Assembly: GCA_028818705.1 (NCBI GenBank)
Contig: JAPPNJ010000053.1
Coordinates: 1-64,000 of the forward strand
Reading direction: 5' to 3'
Length of the DNA: 64,000 nucleotides
DNA from: Candidatus Poribacteria bacterium
GTDB lineage: Bacteria > Poribacteria > WGA-4E > WGA-3G
Shown here: positions 5,917-60,806 of the stretch, one piece after another
Position numbering within the stretch: the stretch's first letter is position 1
How the letters are laid out: each line of letters starts with the position of its first letter
Position numbers and translations under genes: made by a program
Notes under the pieces: generated by a model
What the model was told of the DNA's origin: nothing
The model's input: the letters and a program-made list of their open reading frames with translations, nothing else
The model's database searches: none

Positions 5917-6825
5917 TTAGGACGATTCCCACAAGTAATTTATGTTGAATTTTGCTGTCTCATCATCACCGACTACCCCTTCCAGACGAACTTTTAGATC
6001 TAAAAGTTCCGCGGACTGAGTTGGATAGAAGAACTGAATCCCGTTCTCGCCACTGGTACCAATGAACTGTGCAAAACCAGTTATATCGTTGTCTGTTAAC
6101 AGCTTCCCATTGATCGTAACTGCTACGCCGCTTTCGCTAAGCGCGGGTGGATTGTCAGGAGTTGTTCCGTCTGGATAGTATACCCAGATAATCCATCCGT
6201 GTCCATCATCCGAATTACCATCATTGTCATTACCGTTGTTATTATTTCTCCCGCCTCCGTTATCCTCGCTATTATCGTTGTTATTATTTCTCCCGCCTCC
6301 GTTATCTCCATTATTATTGTTGTTATTATTTCTCCCGCCCCTGTTATCCTCGCTATTACCGTTGTTATTATTTCCCCCGCCTCCGTTATCCCCGTTATTA
6401 TTGTTGTTATTTCCTCCGTCTCCGTTATTATTGTTTCCATTATCTCCGCTGGCATCTGTTAAGGCTTGTGTAATCCGGGCTCTCTCTGCGCGCAAAATGG
6501 GGTTCCCTTCATGATAGAACAGATAAAGACGTTTCTCAGGATAGATATGGATAGTAGATGGGTTGGTGGCATCTGCGCCGTTCTGTGTTCCTGGTATAAG
6601 TTTTATGCAAGTTGAACTGAGATCATTCTGAAAGCAGATAGCATTTCCATCTGTTGCAACAAGATAGCGGTTTACCTCAGGCACAGTCAGTACCGTAGTT
6701 GTATAACGCATATCGGAGCAGCCTGTGATGCTGAAAACGATAATTAGGATTCCCAAGATGCTTTTCACGGATATAGGTTCAATTTTTCTCCTCATCCCAA
6801 AACTTGCTGCTGTTATTTTTCTCAT
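5917..6825 (-). CDS. Lipoprotein with Asn/Gly-rich repeat region
   Basis: A 302-residue predicted lipoprotein with lipobox SITGC and lipidated Cys about residue 36. Downstream is a conserved N-terminal region found also in the paralogue at 6997-7806, then about 85 residues rich in Asn, Gly and Asp built from a 14-residue unit, then a conserved C-terminal region starting WIIWVYYPDG. The repeat interrupts the paralogue alignment exactly where the other copy has a short NIDNLNNGN linker. I start at 6825 because AGGAG lies eight bases upstream of that ATG; the in-frame ATG at 6843 lacks a site. No known domain was recognised. Function unknown; probably an envelope surface protein. Confidence 0.8.
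   Translation of the reverse strand: MRKITAASFGMRRKIEPISVKSILGILIIVFSITGCSDMRYTTTVLTVPEVNRYLVATDGNAICFQNDLSSTCIKLIPGTQNGADATNPSTIHIYPEKRLYLFYHEGNPILRAERARITQALTDASGDNGNNNNGDGGNNNNNNGDNGGGGNNNNGNSEDNRGGRNNNNNNNGDNGGGRNNNNDNSEDNGGGRNNNNGNDNDGNSDDGHGWIIWVYYPDGTTPDNPPALSESGVAVTINGKLLTDNDITGFAQFIGTSGENGIQFFYPTQSAELLDLKVRLEGVVGDDETAKFNINYLWESS
6211..6460. repeat. Tandem 42-bp coding repeat
   Basis: A 42-bp unit recurs with the GCCTCC/GCCCCT start at 6253, 6295, 6337 and 6379, with degenerate units on both sides. It encodes Asn/Gly/Asp-rich 14-residue blocks inside the lipoprotein gene. Because the period is a multiple of three, copy number can change without a frameshift. Confidence 0.9.
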
Positions 6826-50392: not shown

Positions 50393-51838
50393 TTAGAAGA
50401 GTCCTGCAATCGGTTCGCCTTTCACCAATTCGCGTGGCTGATCCAAATGATTGTACACGATGGTGTGTGGATCGATACCGAGTGTATGATAGACAGTCGC
50501 GAGGAGGTCGCGCGGATGTACAGGATTCTCAAGCGGTGTCGAACCGGTTGCATCCGACTTCCCGTAAACCTGTCCACCTTTTACACCTGCGCCAGCAATC
50601 AAGCCCGTATAGCAATAGGGCCAGTGGTCGCGTCCATCAGGTGCGTTGCTGTTACCGGAGGTGCTAATGCCCATCCGCGGGGAACGTCCAAATTCACCGA
50701 CCGCCAAGACGAGGGTGTCTTCCAACATGCCGCGTTGATCCAAGTCTTCCAGCAGTGAAGATACAGCACTGTCTAATTTCGGGCAGTGAAGGTTCTTCAG
50801 CGGACCGAAGTTGGTTGCGTGTGTATCCCATGCTGTGGTATTCGGATCACCGTTAGCAACAGAAGGCCAGTTCACCTGTACGAAACGGGTGCCTGCTTCG
50901 ACCAAACGGCGAGCGAGCAGTGCGCTTTGTCCGAACGTGTGTCTACCGTAACGATCCCGGACTTCGTCTGGTTCTTGAGACAAATCGAAAGCATTGCGTG
51001 CTCGTTGCGACAAGATGAGGTTGTATGCCTTCTCATAATACTCGTTCAAGGCGTAAGAGTCAGCAACCTTATCAATTTCGGGCATCCCTGCGTTAATCGT
51101 CTCAAGGAGCGTTTTCCGGCGTTTCAGACGGACGGGTGTCACCTCTGGTCGTAGACTCAAATCGTCGAGATTAATTTCCTCATTCGGGTCCTGGAAGAGG
51201 AAATAGGGATCATACGCTCTACCGAGGAACCCTGCGTTTCCACCTTTACCGATGGTATTGCTTTCCTGCATCGGACGAGGCAGCTGCACAGCCGAGAGCA
51301 TCGGTTCATCGGGTGGACGGTAATTGGAGACATGCGATGCGACATTCGGATGGTCGGCTGGGGACGGCGGATCAAGTTGTCCCGAAGGCGCGACCTTGTC
51401 CGGCGTTTCACCGGTCACCATCTGATACATCGCAGCGGTATGATTAAACAGTCCTGCCGGTGTGTAACTGATGGAGCGGATAAGAGTAGCTTTATCCATC
51501 ACCTGTGCTAAACGCGGCATTGTCTCAGACAACTGAATTCCCGGTACATTGGTCGGGATCGGACTAAATTCACCGCGGATATTCGAGGGTGCTTCCGGCT
51601 TAGGATCCCAGATGTCAAGGTGGCTAGGACCGCCTTGCAAAAAGAGCAAGATGACGGAGTTGGCTTTCCCCCATCCGTTGAGCGGCTTGGAGGGATCAAC
51701 TGTCGTATTGGCTTTTGCCTGGAGTGACAATACCTGTGGCAAACTAATGCCGAGCATCGCCGCACCACCGACACGCAGAAATTCACGCCGCGAGAACCCG
51801 TCACATAAACGTCCGGGTAGTTGTGGTAACGATAACAT
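50393..51838 (-). CDS. DUF1501 family protein with twin-arginine signal
   Basis: A 481-residue protein with a Tat signal (SRREFLRVGGAAML, residues 16-29) and the DUF1501 core: LFLQGGPSHLDIWDPKP near the N-terminus, RYGRHTFGQSALLARRLVEAG, TLVLAVGEFGRSPRMG and GRDHWPYCYTG. The family has an alkaline-phosphatase-like fold with unproven substrates, possibly in polymer or sulfate ester breakdown. The gene follows the DUF1549/DUF1553 gene in the same direction, the usual pairing. GGAGG stands nine bases upstream of the ATG. Confidence 0.92.
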   Translation of the reverse strand: MLSLPQLPGRLCDGFSRREFLRVGGAAMLGISLPQVLSLQAKANTTVDPSKPLNGWGKANSVILLFLQGGPSHLDIWDPKPEAPSNIRGEFSPIPTNVPGIQLSETMPRLAQVMDKATLIRSISYTPAGLFNHTAAMYQMVTGETPDKVAPSGQLDPPSPADHPNVASHVSNYRPPDEPMLSAVQLPRPMQESNTIGKGGNAGFLGRAYDPYFLFQDPNEEINLDDLSLRPEVTPVRLKRRKTLLETINAGMPEIDKVADSYALNEYYEKAYNLILSQRARNAFDLSQEPDEVRDRYGRHTFGQSALLARRLVEAGTRFVQVNWPSVANGDPNTTAWDTHATNFGPLKNLHCPKLDSAVSSLLEDLDQRGMLEDTLVLAVGEFGRSPRMGISTSGNSNAPDGRDHWPYCYTGLIAGAGVKGGQVYGKSDATGSTPLENPVHPRDLLATVYHTLGIDPHTIVYNHLDQPRELVKGEPIAGLF

Positions 51839-51938: not shown

Positions 51939-54440
51939 TTAGCGATTGAATAAGAAAGCGGGACTGTTAATTAGTGCCCACAACAAGTCTTGCGCGCCCT
52001 CTTCCTTCGACTCAGCATTTGCGAGATGCTCAATCGCTATTGCATATTCGTTCTTATCTGGTAACCGAGAAAACGTTGCGAGATATAACTCCTCAACGAG
52101 AACCCGGTCATCTTGATTCGTTTCGATGAATTGTGCGATACGTCCTTCTGGATCGATGAGTGCTTCGGCAACCGTCGGTCCATTAATGAGATTCATTGCG
52201 TGTGCGAGGCTGACCTCTGTGGTCCGTTCACATTCACAAGAGGTTTCGCGTTCAGGTCTACCAAATAACTTCAAAAATCCGTCATCTTTGACCTTGCTGT
52301 CCGGCAATTGCACGGCTCGGAAGTTCTTCGGCACCTCTTCAAATCGCGGTCGGCTCCCTGTTGCGACGCCGATAGCATCTAACAGCTGTTCTGCCGTCAA
52401 GCGTCTGGCGACAGCATGTGAAAAGTTAATTGTATCAGCCTTGTTCCACTTGTTGGTTTTGATGCTCTGTTGATAGGTTCGAGAACGGGTGATTGTCTTC
52501 ATGATATGCTTTATGTCAAATCCACTGTCCACGAAATCCTTTGTCAATGCATCAAGCAATTCAGGGTTGCTGGGTGGATTACTTGTGCGGATATCGTCTA
52601 CAGGTTCGATAATCCCGCGTCCCATAAAGTAGCTCCAAATGCGGTTCGCACCTGCCAGAGCAAACATCGGATTCTCTTCAGAGGTGAGCCACTCAGCCAA
52701 CATCTCACGCTTACCGTCGGCTTGCGCTGCAACTTCTCCGAATGGGACTGAGGGTTCAACAACCGCCAAAGTTCGGGGATGTTTCACAGGCTCTGGCGTA
52801 TAATTGGCGTAGACGATTTCATCACCGGGAAGTTGTCCTGGCTTGATTTTGACATCCGCGAAGAACGCACCGAGTTCGTAGTATTGGTTCTGCGTCCATT
52901 TTTCAAATGGATGGTCGTGACATTTGTTACACGAGAATCGAACACCTAAAAAGAGCTGCGTCGTATTCTCCACGGCGGCAGTATATTCACGAGAGACACG
53001 AAAATAACTCGCTGCAGGATTCGTGTAGGTGCTACCCGTAGCGGTAATTAGATTATGCACAAACTCATCATAGGGACGATTCTCGGCGATGGCTTGATGG
53101 ATCCACTGCTGGAAGAGCCAGACGCCACGCTCACCAAGGAATTTACGGTTGGACTGCAACAGATCTCCCCATTTGTGTGTCCAGTGATCAACAAACTCCG
53201 GGGTCTCAACGAGGGCATCAATGAGTTGCTCTCGTTTTGTTTTCGATGCAGTTTTGTCGGCCAGAAAACTTCGAACTTGCTTGGGGGTCGGTGGAATACC
53301 CGTTAAATCGAAATAGATACGCCGCACAAACTCCTCATCTGTACAGAGTTCGGAAGGTAGCACTTTCATCCGTTTTAGCTTATTGTGAACGTGCGTATCG
53401 ATATAGTTATATTCCGGAGTCTTAACCCATTTGTAGCCGCTCCTGTCGCCCATCACAATAATGTTGTTTGTGCTATAGGCACCTTCATAGCGGGTGAGAA
53501 TAGAGGTTTCACCGCGGCGTTCTGCGGTTACGACACCTTCATCTGTGACGTTTGCCACTTCAGTAGCACTACTTGTGAATTTTGCCTCGCGAGTAACATC
53601 CCGTGTTGTTCCATCCGAATAGTGTGCGATGACTATAAGTTGTTGTTTCATACCGGGTATCGCGAGTTCAGCGGAATCGGGGACAACTTCTAATCTTTGC
53701 ACGCGTTGCGTCGTATGAACATCAGGGATAGCACCCTCGGCGATCCACTGATGGATGACACTATAGTCTCGATTTCCTGGGACCAATACCTGTCCACCTT
53801 TGTGTGGCACCTCGGATGTCGGTTTCAGCAACATCAGGCTCTGTTCGGGGAACGCTCTGTTGAACCGCCGTCCAGATATATCCTCAATTAACAACTCATA
53901 ATCAAAATCGGGATCGTAGCCACGAAGTGAGAGTTTGAATCCATTTTTGCCTTTCGCTGCGCCGTGGCACGTTCCGTTATTACATCCAGCATGGCTCAGA
54001 ATAGGCATGACATCTCGCACAAAACTCACAGGTGGTGCCTCCATGCTCTTAACATTCACGGATAATTCGGTACGCATGCCCTTGACGCTAACGGTAATTT
54101 TCGTTGTGCCAACTGTCATCGGAAAGATATAGCCATCTTCATGCACCTTCACAAGCTGTGAAAGAGGTGTCAGCGCAGCCCACGGCGTTACATCTACCCA
54201 TGTACCATCTTTTGTCTTACCTGACACGAGCACACGCCTACCATCACGGGCGTGTTCCAATGTCAATGACTCCGGATGAACCCTCAACTCCGTTAAAGCG
54301 ACGTTTGCAAGCCAATCTTGCCCCGTCGGAACCTCTGCACTTGCGGTTTGCGCTACCTGATTCCACCCCGTTAATTGGAATGCGAAACAGATAAAACACA
54401 CAACAAGGAGCGTTGTTACAAAGTTAAACCTGGGTTTCAT
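51939..54440 (-). CDS. DUF1549/DUF1553 cytochrome-like protein with Ig-like domains
   Basis: An 833-residue exported protein. A signal peptide (residues 10-34) is followed by a bacterial Ig-like domain, then a cytochrome c-like site GCNNGTCHGAAKGKNGFKLS with CxxxxCH spacing. A second Ig-like domain carries TRDVTREAKFTSS. The DUF1549 part contains FVRRIYFDLTGIPPTP and CNKCHDHPFEKWTQ (CxxCH), and the DUF1553 part contains NRIWSYFMGRGIIEPVDDIR to SYQQS. ATG 54440 is preferred over the in-frame TTG just before it. It pairs with DUF1501 as in planctomycetes. The family probably degrades or binds complex carbohydrates; not proven. Confidence 0.9.
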   Translation of the reverse strand: MKPRFNFVTTLLVVCFICFAFQLTGWNQVAQTASAEVPTGQDWLANVALTELRVHPESLTLEHARDGRRVLVSGKTKDGTWVDVTPWAALTPLSQLVKVHEDGYIFPMTVGTTKITVSVKGMRTELSVNVKSMEAPPVSFVRDVMPILSHAGCNNGTCHGAAKGKNGFKLSLRGYDPDFDYELLIEDISGRRFNRAFPEQSLMLLKPTSEVPHKGGQVLVPGNRDYSVIHQWIAEGAIPDVHTTQRVQRLEVVPDSAELAIPGMKQQLIVIAHYSDGTTRDVTREAKFTSSATEVANVTDEGVVTAERRGETSILTRYEGAYSTNNIIVMGDRSGYKWVKTPEYNYIDTHVHNKLKRMKVLPSELCTDEEFVRRIYFDLTGIPPTPKQVRSFLADKTASKTKREQLIDALVETPEFVDHWTHKWGDLLQSNRKFLGERGVWLFQQWIHQAIAENRPYDEFVHNLITATGSTYTNPAASYFRVSREYTAAVENTTQLFLGVRFSCNKCHDHPFEKWTQNQYYELGAFFADVKIKPGQLPGDEIVYANYTPEPVKHPRTLAVVEPSVPFGEVAAQADGKREMLAEWLTSEENPMFALAGANRIWSYFMGRGIIEPVDDIRTSNPPSNPELLDALTKDFVDSGFDIKHIMKTITRSRTYQQSIKTNKWNKADTINFSHAVARRLTAEQLLDAIGVATGSRPRFEEVPKNFRAVQLPDSKVKDDGFLKLFGRPERETSCECERTTEVSLAHAMNLINGPTVAEALIDPEGRIAQFIETNQDDRVLVEELYLATFSRLPDKNEYAIAIEHLANAESKEEGAQDLLWALINSPAFLFNR

Positions 54441-54657
54441 CAAAAACTCGGCGTGAGACCCCCGACTGTAGCGACAGAGGAAACGCCGTCCTCCTTAAAT
54501 CTGATTTTTAGCGATTGGGTTCTCGCTTAGTTATTCTCCGTTGTTGAAAAAACGCGTTCTACCTAATTTGTAGCGAAGTGAGAAAATCTATGATCGTCGT
54601 TAGCGTGTAGTAAGTTATCTTAGCATTTGTGCTGATTCTGTATCAATAGTTTAGAGT

Positions 54658-59121: not shown

Positions 59122-60720
59122 CTATTGAGTCGTCGCGTTAAATCCGGTCTCTTTAACAATGTTTGCGAGGTCAGCGGCAGTGACAGTATTCTTACGGACC
59201 TTAATGATTGCCTGATTAGGGAGAGAAACTTTAACACTGATAACGCTTTGGTGATGTGTAAGTGCATCCTGCACTTTTGCGACACAAGCCCCTCACGTCA
59301 TACCTGTAACAACCAAAGCGACATCCTCGCTGCCCGCTGGTTCAATTGGTACAGACATAAAGGCGTTCAGCAGTTTTCCAGAAGCGGTGTCAAATACCCG
59401 AATCTTTCCGTCGAAACCACCTGTAGCGAGTTGTTTACCATCGGGATGGAACGAGACTGCAAAGACGCCAACTGCATCGCCCTGCATAGATGCCAACCGC
59501 TTCCCATCTTCTACGTTGTAGACGCGGGCTTCGCCACCGGCGCAGCCTGTAGCAAACTGACTGCCGTCTGCTGAAAACGCGTAACCCTCAATCGAACCCG
59601 ATTGCGCTTCATAGGCTTGGATGAGGTTAAAGTCGGTATTGCCGACATCCCTTTGGATCTCGCGAAAAATCTTGTAGAGGCGAGGTATTCTATCTTCACC
59701 ACCACTTAGCACCTGATCTTCAGTGGGGTGTCGTGCGATGGTATTGATTTCGCCGTAGCCTTTGTTACTGGAGTTGATGTCGTCAACAAAAGAACCGGTG
59801 CTTACTTCAACCAATTTAAGAGCGGTATCCCGTCCGGCACTTACAAAATGCGACCCATCGGTGGAGAAAATTGTACCGAAGACCCAGTCGCTGTGGTTAT
59901 CGAATTTAATCAGTTCTTTTTCATCTGTAACGGAAAGGAGACGCACGGTTTGATCTGAACACCCGAAAGCAACGCGACTGGCATCTGGTGAGAAAGAGAG
60001 TCCGTACACGGTGTCATAACTGGAGCGCATCGCTTTAATGAGGGTATTCGTCGCGGTATCCCAGAGTTGTATTTCACCAAACTGCGCTGGGGATCCACCC
60101 GCTACTCCTAATATCTTTCCGTCTGTTGTGTAAGTGAGTGATTCTATGCGATGTGCCTTGCCTACCAAGCGCGCTTTGAGTTCAAAATTCGTTGTATCAT
60201 ACAATAAAACTTCGCGGAAGCCAGAAATGGCAAGCGTGCTACCATCGGGTGAATACGCGATAGCGGAGACGACGGGAGGTACTGTGTAAGTTGGATAATT
60301 TCCTTCACCCATATCATCGACTTCGTCGGGTGTGTCGTCGTTCGCACCTTCAAGGATCCAACGTCGGAAAAGTTCAACTTCTTCAGCGGAAAGCGGTTCC
60401 ATGTTCTGCGGCATCGCGGGTTCATCACCGGAAATGAGCTTAATGATGAGACTTTCATCGGGTTTTCCTGGGATGATTGCCTCTCCCGCCATTCCGCCCC
60501 GTTTTAGGTCGGTATAGGTTGTTACAATCAGGTCGCCATTCGGATCACCGGGGTGATGGCATCCTTGACAACTCCGTTTGAGAATCGGGACAATTTGTGC
60601 ATGGTAGCTGACTGCTGAACCTGAAGCATGATTGTCCGCCGTTACAAACGGGCCCCATACTACAAAACAGAACAGATATACTGCTAAATGAATCATAAAC
60701 CTCGATCGCGATTTATTCAT
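59122..60720 (-). CDS. Candidate selenoprotein: cytochrome c - WD40 propeller - HMA domain, read through UGA
   Basis: A predicted 532-residue exported protein if UGA codon 476 (59293-59295) is read as selenocysteine. Residues 1-28 are a signal peptide. CQGCH at 51-55 with HPGDPNGDL marks a planctomycete cytochrome c domain. Residues 155-455 are WD40 blades (PPVVSAIAYSPDGS, VYGLSFSPDASRV, VFAVSFHPDGKQL). The region then enters an HMA domain (PAGSEDVALVVTGMT), the UGA, and GACVAKVQDAL..VISVKVSLPN..TGFNATTQ. The UGA lies exactly at the first Cys of GMTCxxC, giving UxxC. HMA domains bind Cu(I), Hg or Zn. If UGA is a stop, the protein ends without a metal site. ATG 60720 is preferred; the promoter is at 60807-60836. 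Confidence 0.82.
59255..59286 (-). promoter_or_regulatory. Candidate bacterial SECIS hairpin
   Basis: On the minus strand, 23 bases after the UGA, AAGTGCA-GGA-TGCACTT (59260-59276) forms a 7-bp perfect stem with a three-base loop starting GG. TGTG and CACA just outside can extend it. Bacterial SECIS hairpins lie about 16-37 bases downstream of the UGA with a G-rich loop; the E. coli fdhF element has a similar GCAGGTCTGC top. The folding is by eye. Confidence 0.75.
59293..59295 (-). other. Predicted recoded UGA (selenocysteine) codon
   Basis: The codon lies between Thr of GMT and GAC, inside a full HMA domain, and the frame stays open for 56 more codons to TAG at 59122. Recoding as Cys, Trp or Gly is possible but less likely, because ordinary genes here use UGA as stop. 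Confidence 0.8.
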
Positions 60721-60806
60721 ATTTGTCGAAAACCCTCCCACCCGTTACGGTGTGGTTCTATAGCAAGCTGCGCCAAGAATGTCGTGGTTAACATATTTTT
60801 GCAATA

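Follow-up and report, generated by a model that had tools for sequence, protein, structure and literature searches.

A single gene of a 64,000-nt stretch of Candidatus Poribacteria DNA (the window; source genome of 6.04 Mb in 232 contigs) raises the question of whether an in-frame UGA ends its product or is translated as selenocysteine (Sec). The frame that begins at 60720 meets one TGA, at 59293-59295, and then continues for 56 further codons to a TAG, as the preliminary description of this DNA had stated. That description had also placed the UGA exactly at the first Cys of a GMTCxxC motif, and the translation agrees, reading Gly-Met-Thr-UGA-Gly-Ala-Cys (UxxC, where U is the predicted Sec). 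From the evidence laid out below, we consider it very probable that this UGA, which is conserved in Poribacteria, is read as Sec. The residue would take the first ligand position in an HMA domain, which forms the C-terminal end of a fusion with a cytochrome c/WD40 propeller. The features of the gene and of related genes are collected in Table 1.

Table 1. Features of the predicted Sec-site gene, its neighbours in the window, and related HMA genes of the same genome. Positions are those of the window unless a locus is named.
Feature	Position	Strand	Remarks
Full coding sequence with UGA read through	59122..60720	(-)	532 residues, TAG stop (translation)
Alternative start of the same gene	GTG at 60741	(-)	
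In-frame UGA, codon 476, predicted Sec of UxxC	59293..59295	(-)	Only TGA in frame
SECIS-type hairpin AAGTGCAGGATGCACTT	59260..59276	(-)	7-bp stem, GGA loop, loop 23 nt after UGA
HMA domain, residues 466-532	59125..59325	(-)	PF00403, 34.3 bits; modelled as beta-alpha-beta-beta-alpha-beta, pLDDT blocks 86-93
WD40 beta-propeller, about residues 150-455	59356..60273	(-)	WD40 domain match; model resembles PDB WD40 propellers
PSCyt1 cytochrome c domain, CQGCH haem motif at residues 51-55	60409..60570	(-)	PF07635 match
N-terminal hydrophobic helix, probable signal peptide	60628..60720	(-)	Sequence; model helix 3-27
PSCyt2-PSD1 protein	51939..54443	(-)	Same-strand neighbour; next gene downstream in deep-branching Poribacteria
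DUF1501 protein of conserved cluster	50393..51838	(-)	Same-strand neighbour
Lipoprotein-like HMA gene	L013:944-1345 (contig C5)	(-)	UGA and same SECIS-type hairpin
Lipoprotein-like HMA gene	L013:1480-1872 (contig C5)	(-)	UGA and same SECIS-type hairpin

Domain searches bear out the proposed fusion of a cytochrome c/WD40 propeller to an HMA domain. The N-terminal part matches PSCyt1 (37.5 bits against a cut-off of 22), with the CxxCH motif present, and WD40. The tail alone, with C put for U, passes the Pfam HMA model (PF00403) at its cut-off of 24.8 bits, in line with the HMA pattern that had been noticed after the UGA; a six-frame search of the genome with TGA left unread gave 24.3 bits for HMA, just below that cut-off. 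The signal-like N-terminal helix and the CxxCH motif suggest that the protein is exported and carries haem. An AlphaFold2 model (31 sequences) was obtained with a mean pLDDT of 85.4, the cytochrome region at residues 52-61 being poorly modelled. In the tail, the model has a strand at 464-472, a helix at 477-488, strands at 493-499 and 503-509, a helix at 515-523, and a strand at 528-531, which is the HMA order. A Foldseek search with the full model returned WD40 propellers as the top matches and no HMA entry among the best 50. The tail sequence matches the solved HMA domains of copper ATPases, CopZ and, more weakly, MerP. An HMA fold is thus predicted for the tail from the modelled secondary structure together with the matches to solved HMA domains.

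To place the UGA among relatives, genome contigs were searched for homologues, from which 85 stretches were confirmed and 80 loci kept (59 from Poribacteria and 21 from other groups). The nearest named relatives of the source genome are Candidatus Poribacteria MAGs, and one locus (L027) is 98% identical. HMA-bearing copies number 57, at 56 Poribacteria loci. At codon 476, where the preliminary description had asked whether relatives carry Cys or UGA, the aligned copies have nothing else: the codon is TGA in 55 of 57, TGC in L079, and TGT in L077. Past this codon, the frame is unbroken in every one of the 57. Every UGA copy runs 56 or 57 codons past the site to a stop; over 58 rows, the window included, the tail has 56 codons in 53 and 57-63 in the five most distant. 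Differences within the tail are biased to the third codon position (0.183/0.147/0.46 per position). Because the length is kept across rows and the differences are biased in this way, the tail is more than a chance extension. In an alignment of the N-free rows, all 56 have C51, C54, and H55 of the CxxCH motif and the second Cys of UxxC. No HMA match was found in Poribacteria loci L083-L085 or in the 21 non-Poribacteria loci fetched. On a tree of 65 rows, which has long branches and open forks, the Sec rows require two changes. One locus, L053, carries a tandem cytochrome/WD40/HMA duplicate (near 6640 and 7654) with UGA in both copies, the second of which contains N bases.

Just downstream of the UGA lies the hairpin AAGTGCAGGNTGCACTT. 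The rules for bacterial SECIS elements in section 5 of PMC13188914 ask for a loop of 3-9 nt, a G in the first two loop positions, a spacing of 16-37 nt, a stem of 4-16 bp, and a folding energy of -7.5 kcal/mol. With the dimensions listed in Table 1, the hairpin fits the loop, spacing, and stem rules. A longer stretch, the 45 nt that follow the UGA, has a folding energy of -14.1 kcal/mol and passes the energy rule, and the 18-nt core alone, at -7.1 kcal/mol here and -4.9 to -10.1 in the UGA copies, mostly fails it. In the UGA copies, the core has a stem of 6-7 bp (5 in L032) and a GGN loop, and an AAA or AGA codon in this region is followed by GTG CAG GNT GCA CTN (CCT as the last codon in L032).

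The codons of this core are frozen. Among 154 degenerate columns with an invariant residue, only V483 (GTG), Q484 (CAG), and A486 (GCA) also have an invariant codon, and all three are in the hairpin; the chance that three random columns of 154 are one given triple is 1.7e-6. This count used 54 of the 58 copies (two were dropped for N bases and two have Cys) and left six invariant Ile columns unclassed (160 minus 154). In the two Cys copies, the GG of the loop is lost, with AGAGT and AAACT in place of AGGNT, and A486 is encoded by GCG. When refolded, L079 gives a weak structure (-1.3) and L077 still gives a 6-bp hairpin (-6.1) without a G in the loop. The stem contains no compensatory base changes. 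As the core is strictly conserved, it offers no covariation evidence, and the hairpin structure rests on conservation and folding.

The only hit of a strict scan of the window, run on both strands for a TGA followed within a long open frame by a GG-loop hairpin with a perfect 4-bp stem, is the codon-476 site. Over the whole genome, a pattern that combines the UGA, the codon for the second Cys, and the hairpin gave three matches, versus none for a reversed control. The same pattern was found in 45 of 58 Poribacteria genomes (source genome included), again with no reversed matches; by a manual count of the table, it occurs in all 43 genomes of the family to which the source genome belongs and in 2 of the 15 others, where the pattern counts fused and stand-alone genes alike.

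The preliminary description had made the Sec reading depend on the presence of selA, selB, selC, and selD, and the genome has the first, second, and fourth over their cut-offs, together with a 52-nt 5' part of selC at a contig end. SelA scores 518 bits and is full length on contig C163, SelB scores 338 bits (cut-off 242) on contig C202, and SelD scores 361 bits, above its cut-off (C113:46443-47366, minus strand, locus L024). SelD has an in-frame UGA of its own in a CAGUASK motif, at what we take to be the usual Sec site of this protein, with a GC-rich hairpin downstream; SelD is listed as UxxK in Table 1 of PMC13188914. The selC fragment occupies bases 1-52 of C202 (L016:1-52, minus strand) and matches, at 100% identity, the 5' 52 nt of the tRNA-Sec of locus L107, which is 94 nt long. 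The fragment includes the TCA anticodon and lies 19 nt after the selB stop, and the contig ends soon past the anticodon arm. The gene order in L107 is selB-selC-lipA, the last presumably lipA as named from its sequence. An Rfam search of the source genome for tRNA-Sec, in which 150 of 503 candidates were scored, found none over the cut-off and five sub-threshold hits, which ARAGORN reads as other tRNAs. The family search missed the gene because the contig ends inside it, and a genome without tRNA-Sec is rejected given the 5' part beside selB.

Among relatives, a full tRNA-Sec over the gathering score was found in all seven genomes searched, and of 16 further Poribacteria genomes searched for SelB, 14 scored above the cut-off and two below it. 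In genome G010 (locus L080), SelB is below the cut-off, yet the UGA is present and SelA scores 577 bits. Sec machinery had been expected to be missing from the two genomes with the Cys form, but SelB is present in both, and a Cys codon at the site thus does not go together with loss of the machinery. One of them, G009, has SelA over the cut-off, and in the other, G008, what there is of SelA is an end piece of 36 residues at a contig edge. More widely, SelA and SelB co-occur in the majority of sponge-symbiont bins, according to PMC5649159. In the source genome, a second SelA copy is broken into two pieces, at the ends of C78 and C154 (SelA loci L001, L002, and L003), with similar next genes at L001 and L003. 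This copy could be a duplicate or come from another strain in the bin, whose contamination is 5.58%.

Were the UGA a plain stop, the HMA tail would be a relic that is never translated, or would belong to another reading frame. Such a reading agrees with the protein databases, where 4858 entries matched among 7999 scored and, among the 120 matches listed, 119 end at GMT, exactly before the codon, and one ends otherwise; it also agrees with the lack of an HMA match in the Verrucomicrobia homologues and in three Poribacteria loci. Against it stand the length and frame of the tail, which the 55 UGA copies preserve and in which substitutions follow a coding-like pattern, the Cys copies that read straight through, the frozen synonymous sites of the hairpin, and a site that shows TGA or a Cys codon in every copy and never TAA or TAG. 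On this conservation, a plain stop with a relic tail is rejected, and we find it scarcely credible. The same database entries bear on the expectation that an automated caller would lose the metal site: the predicted site is indeed absent from 119 of those 120, whereas its metal function is a prediction. Decoding of the UGA as another amino acid (for example Trp, or Cys through a tRNA-Cys that reads UGA) or general readthrough would also preserve the tail, and as both sense variants are Cys codons, insertion of Cys fits too. We nevertheless regard this as very unlikely, given the tRNA-Sec with a TCA anticodon in 7/7 relatives and its 5' part beside selB here, the conserved SECIS-type hairpin downstream, and the use of TGA as a stop elsewhere, including as the true stop of this very gene in L080-L082. 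In the window, TGA ends 5 of 37 mechanical ORFs of at least 250 aa, the Sec-site gene included. TGA is thus an ordinary stop, the code has not been reassigned, and genome-wide UGA reassignment is rejected. Taken together, the conserved UGA, the coding-like tail, the frozen hairpin codons, and the sel genes strongly support the selenoprotein candidate that had been put forward.

Under Sec insertion, SelB with Sec-tRNA(Sec) would bind the hairpin and insert Sec, and the product would carry a Sec-x-x-Cys loop on a ferredoxin-like HMA fold. Our best guess is that the Sec-Cys pair would bind a soft metal ion of the Cu(I) or Hg(II) type, since CopZ and copper-ATPase domains are the best sequence matches of the tail; we would further guess that a low-pKa selenolate may keep the metal site usable outside the cell. 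A putative electron exchange between the Sec-Cys site and the haem is possible as well. It may also be that Sec insertion is real and the HMA domain performs redox chemistry, by selenenylsulfide exchange with the haem or with partners, rather than metal binding. The protein has a c-type haem motif, and section 7 of PMC13188914 describes UxxC as a redox-related motif and anticipates a redox function for most selenoproteins yet to be characterised. The predicted fold and the GMTxxxC motif, however, are those of HMA metal-binding domains, with the best scores to CopZ-type and Cu-ATPase domains, and a purely redox role appears to us rather unlikely, if worth keeping in mind. A selenium-controlled domain switch is a doubtful proposal, prompted by the 475-residue form, which resembles HMA-less relatives in length. 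Stopping at the UGA would yield a complete cytochrome c/propeller protein and Sec insertion would add a Sec-Cys metal/redox module, such that selenium supply might set the share of a surface electron-transfer protein that bears the domain. Together with the stand-alone lipoproteins, this would amount to phylum-wide, selenium-dependent surface metal handling.

HMA domains occur at five places in the source genome, three of which carry TGA at the same motif position. The two lipoprotein-like genes on contig C5 are tandem neighbours with the motif GMT-U-GACTSKVQDAL and have what we take to be a lipobox. In genome G008, the source of L077, the fused gene has Cys and has lost the loop GG, and a stand-alone lipoprotein-like HMA gene, L130, keeps the UGA and the hairpin.

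Sec variants of HMA/MerP-like motifs had been described beforehand as known, and NF041115 and MerP bear this out. NF041115, a metal-binding (seleno)protein of NCBIfam, likewise has an HMA-like domain with Sec in the binding loop, but its motif is UxxU and it has no cytochrome or propeller, whereas the gene here has UxxC and both. It appears in Table 1 of PMC13188914 as metal-binding/putative mercuric reductase, UxxU. A MerP mercuric transport selenoprotein was recorded in the GOS survey (count of 2 in the table row of PMC2398784); this protein and NF045683, a MerT/CopZ fusion-like heavy metal transport selenoprotein of NCBIfam, have Sec in a MerP/CopZ-like protein. Against the NF041115 model (cut-off 95 bits), the gene scores 35.5 and its two lipoprotein-like paralogues 57.9 and 49.0; against MerP TIGR02052 (cut-off 92.55 bits), the gene scores 25.0 and the paralogues 47.3 and 49.5; NF045683 matched the lipoprotein-like paralogues only, at 45.9 versus 375 bits. 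All of these scores fall below the cut-offs. In the cation-transporting ATPase E1-E2 selenoprotein, the Sec presumably lies in the N-terminal HMA domain. Its motif, UxxC (PMC13188914 Table 1), is common to both proteins; here the motif is borne by PSCyt1-WD40 and there is no ATPase. The cytochrome-propeller part is shared with PSCyt1-WD40 proteins of Verrucomicrobia and kin (41-49% identity at Verrucomicrobia-labelled loci). The difference is in the HMA domain, which had no match in the 21 non-Poribacteria loci noted above. A tblastn search of plasmids returned 231 records, all below 60% identity and two covering at least 80%, and the 20 matches listed look like general WD40 proteins.

Because Sec-containing HMA-type proteins are already catalogued, the novelty lies in the architecture, the phylum, and the paralogues and not in the exchange of Cys for Sec. 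The preliminary description knew of no such fusion with Sec, and the 119-family selenoprotein table of 2026 (PMC13188914 Table 1) has no PSCyt1-WD40-HMA entry, so that this domain architecture would add to the selenoprotein range of that catalogue. A literature search, judged by title and start of abstract and covering few subscription journals, recognised no work on Poribacteria selenoproteins or PSCyt1-WD40-HMA. Poribacteria thereby gain a conserved predicted selenoprotein family of their own, and the UGA-HMA genes are concrete candidates for the use of SelA/SelB in this phylum.

The gene neighbourhood is also conserved. No mer genes were found among the seven neighbours scanned. A PSCyt2-PSD1 gene was detected in at least 50 of the 56 loci (in L059 as a weak match elsewhere), DUF1501 in at least 46, and a sulfatase in at least 47, counts that short contigs limit. 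Of PSCyt genes, PMC5615132 reports sulfatase genes nearby and WD40 among the linked domains, and states that nothing is known of the functions of the proteins. The Sec-site gene of the window is separated from PSCyt2-PSD1 by a sulfatase gene and others. In the deep-branching loci L077, L080, L081, and L082, the PSCyt2-PSD1 match starts 271-361 nt past the Sec/Cys codon and is followed by DUF1501.
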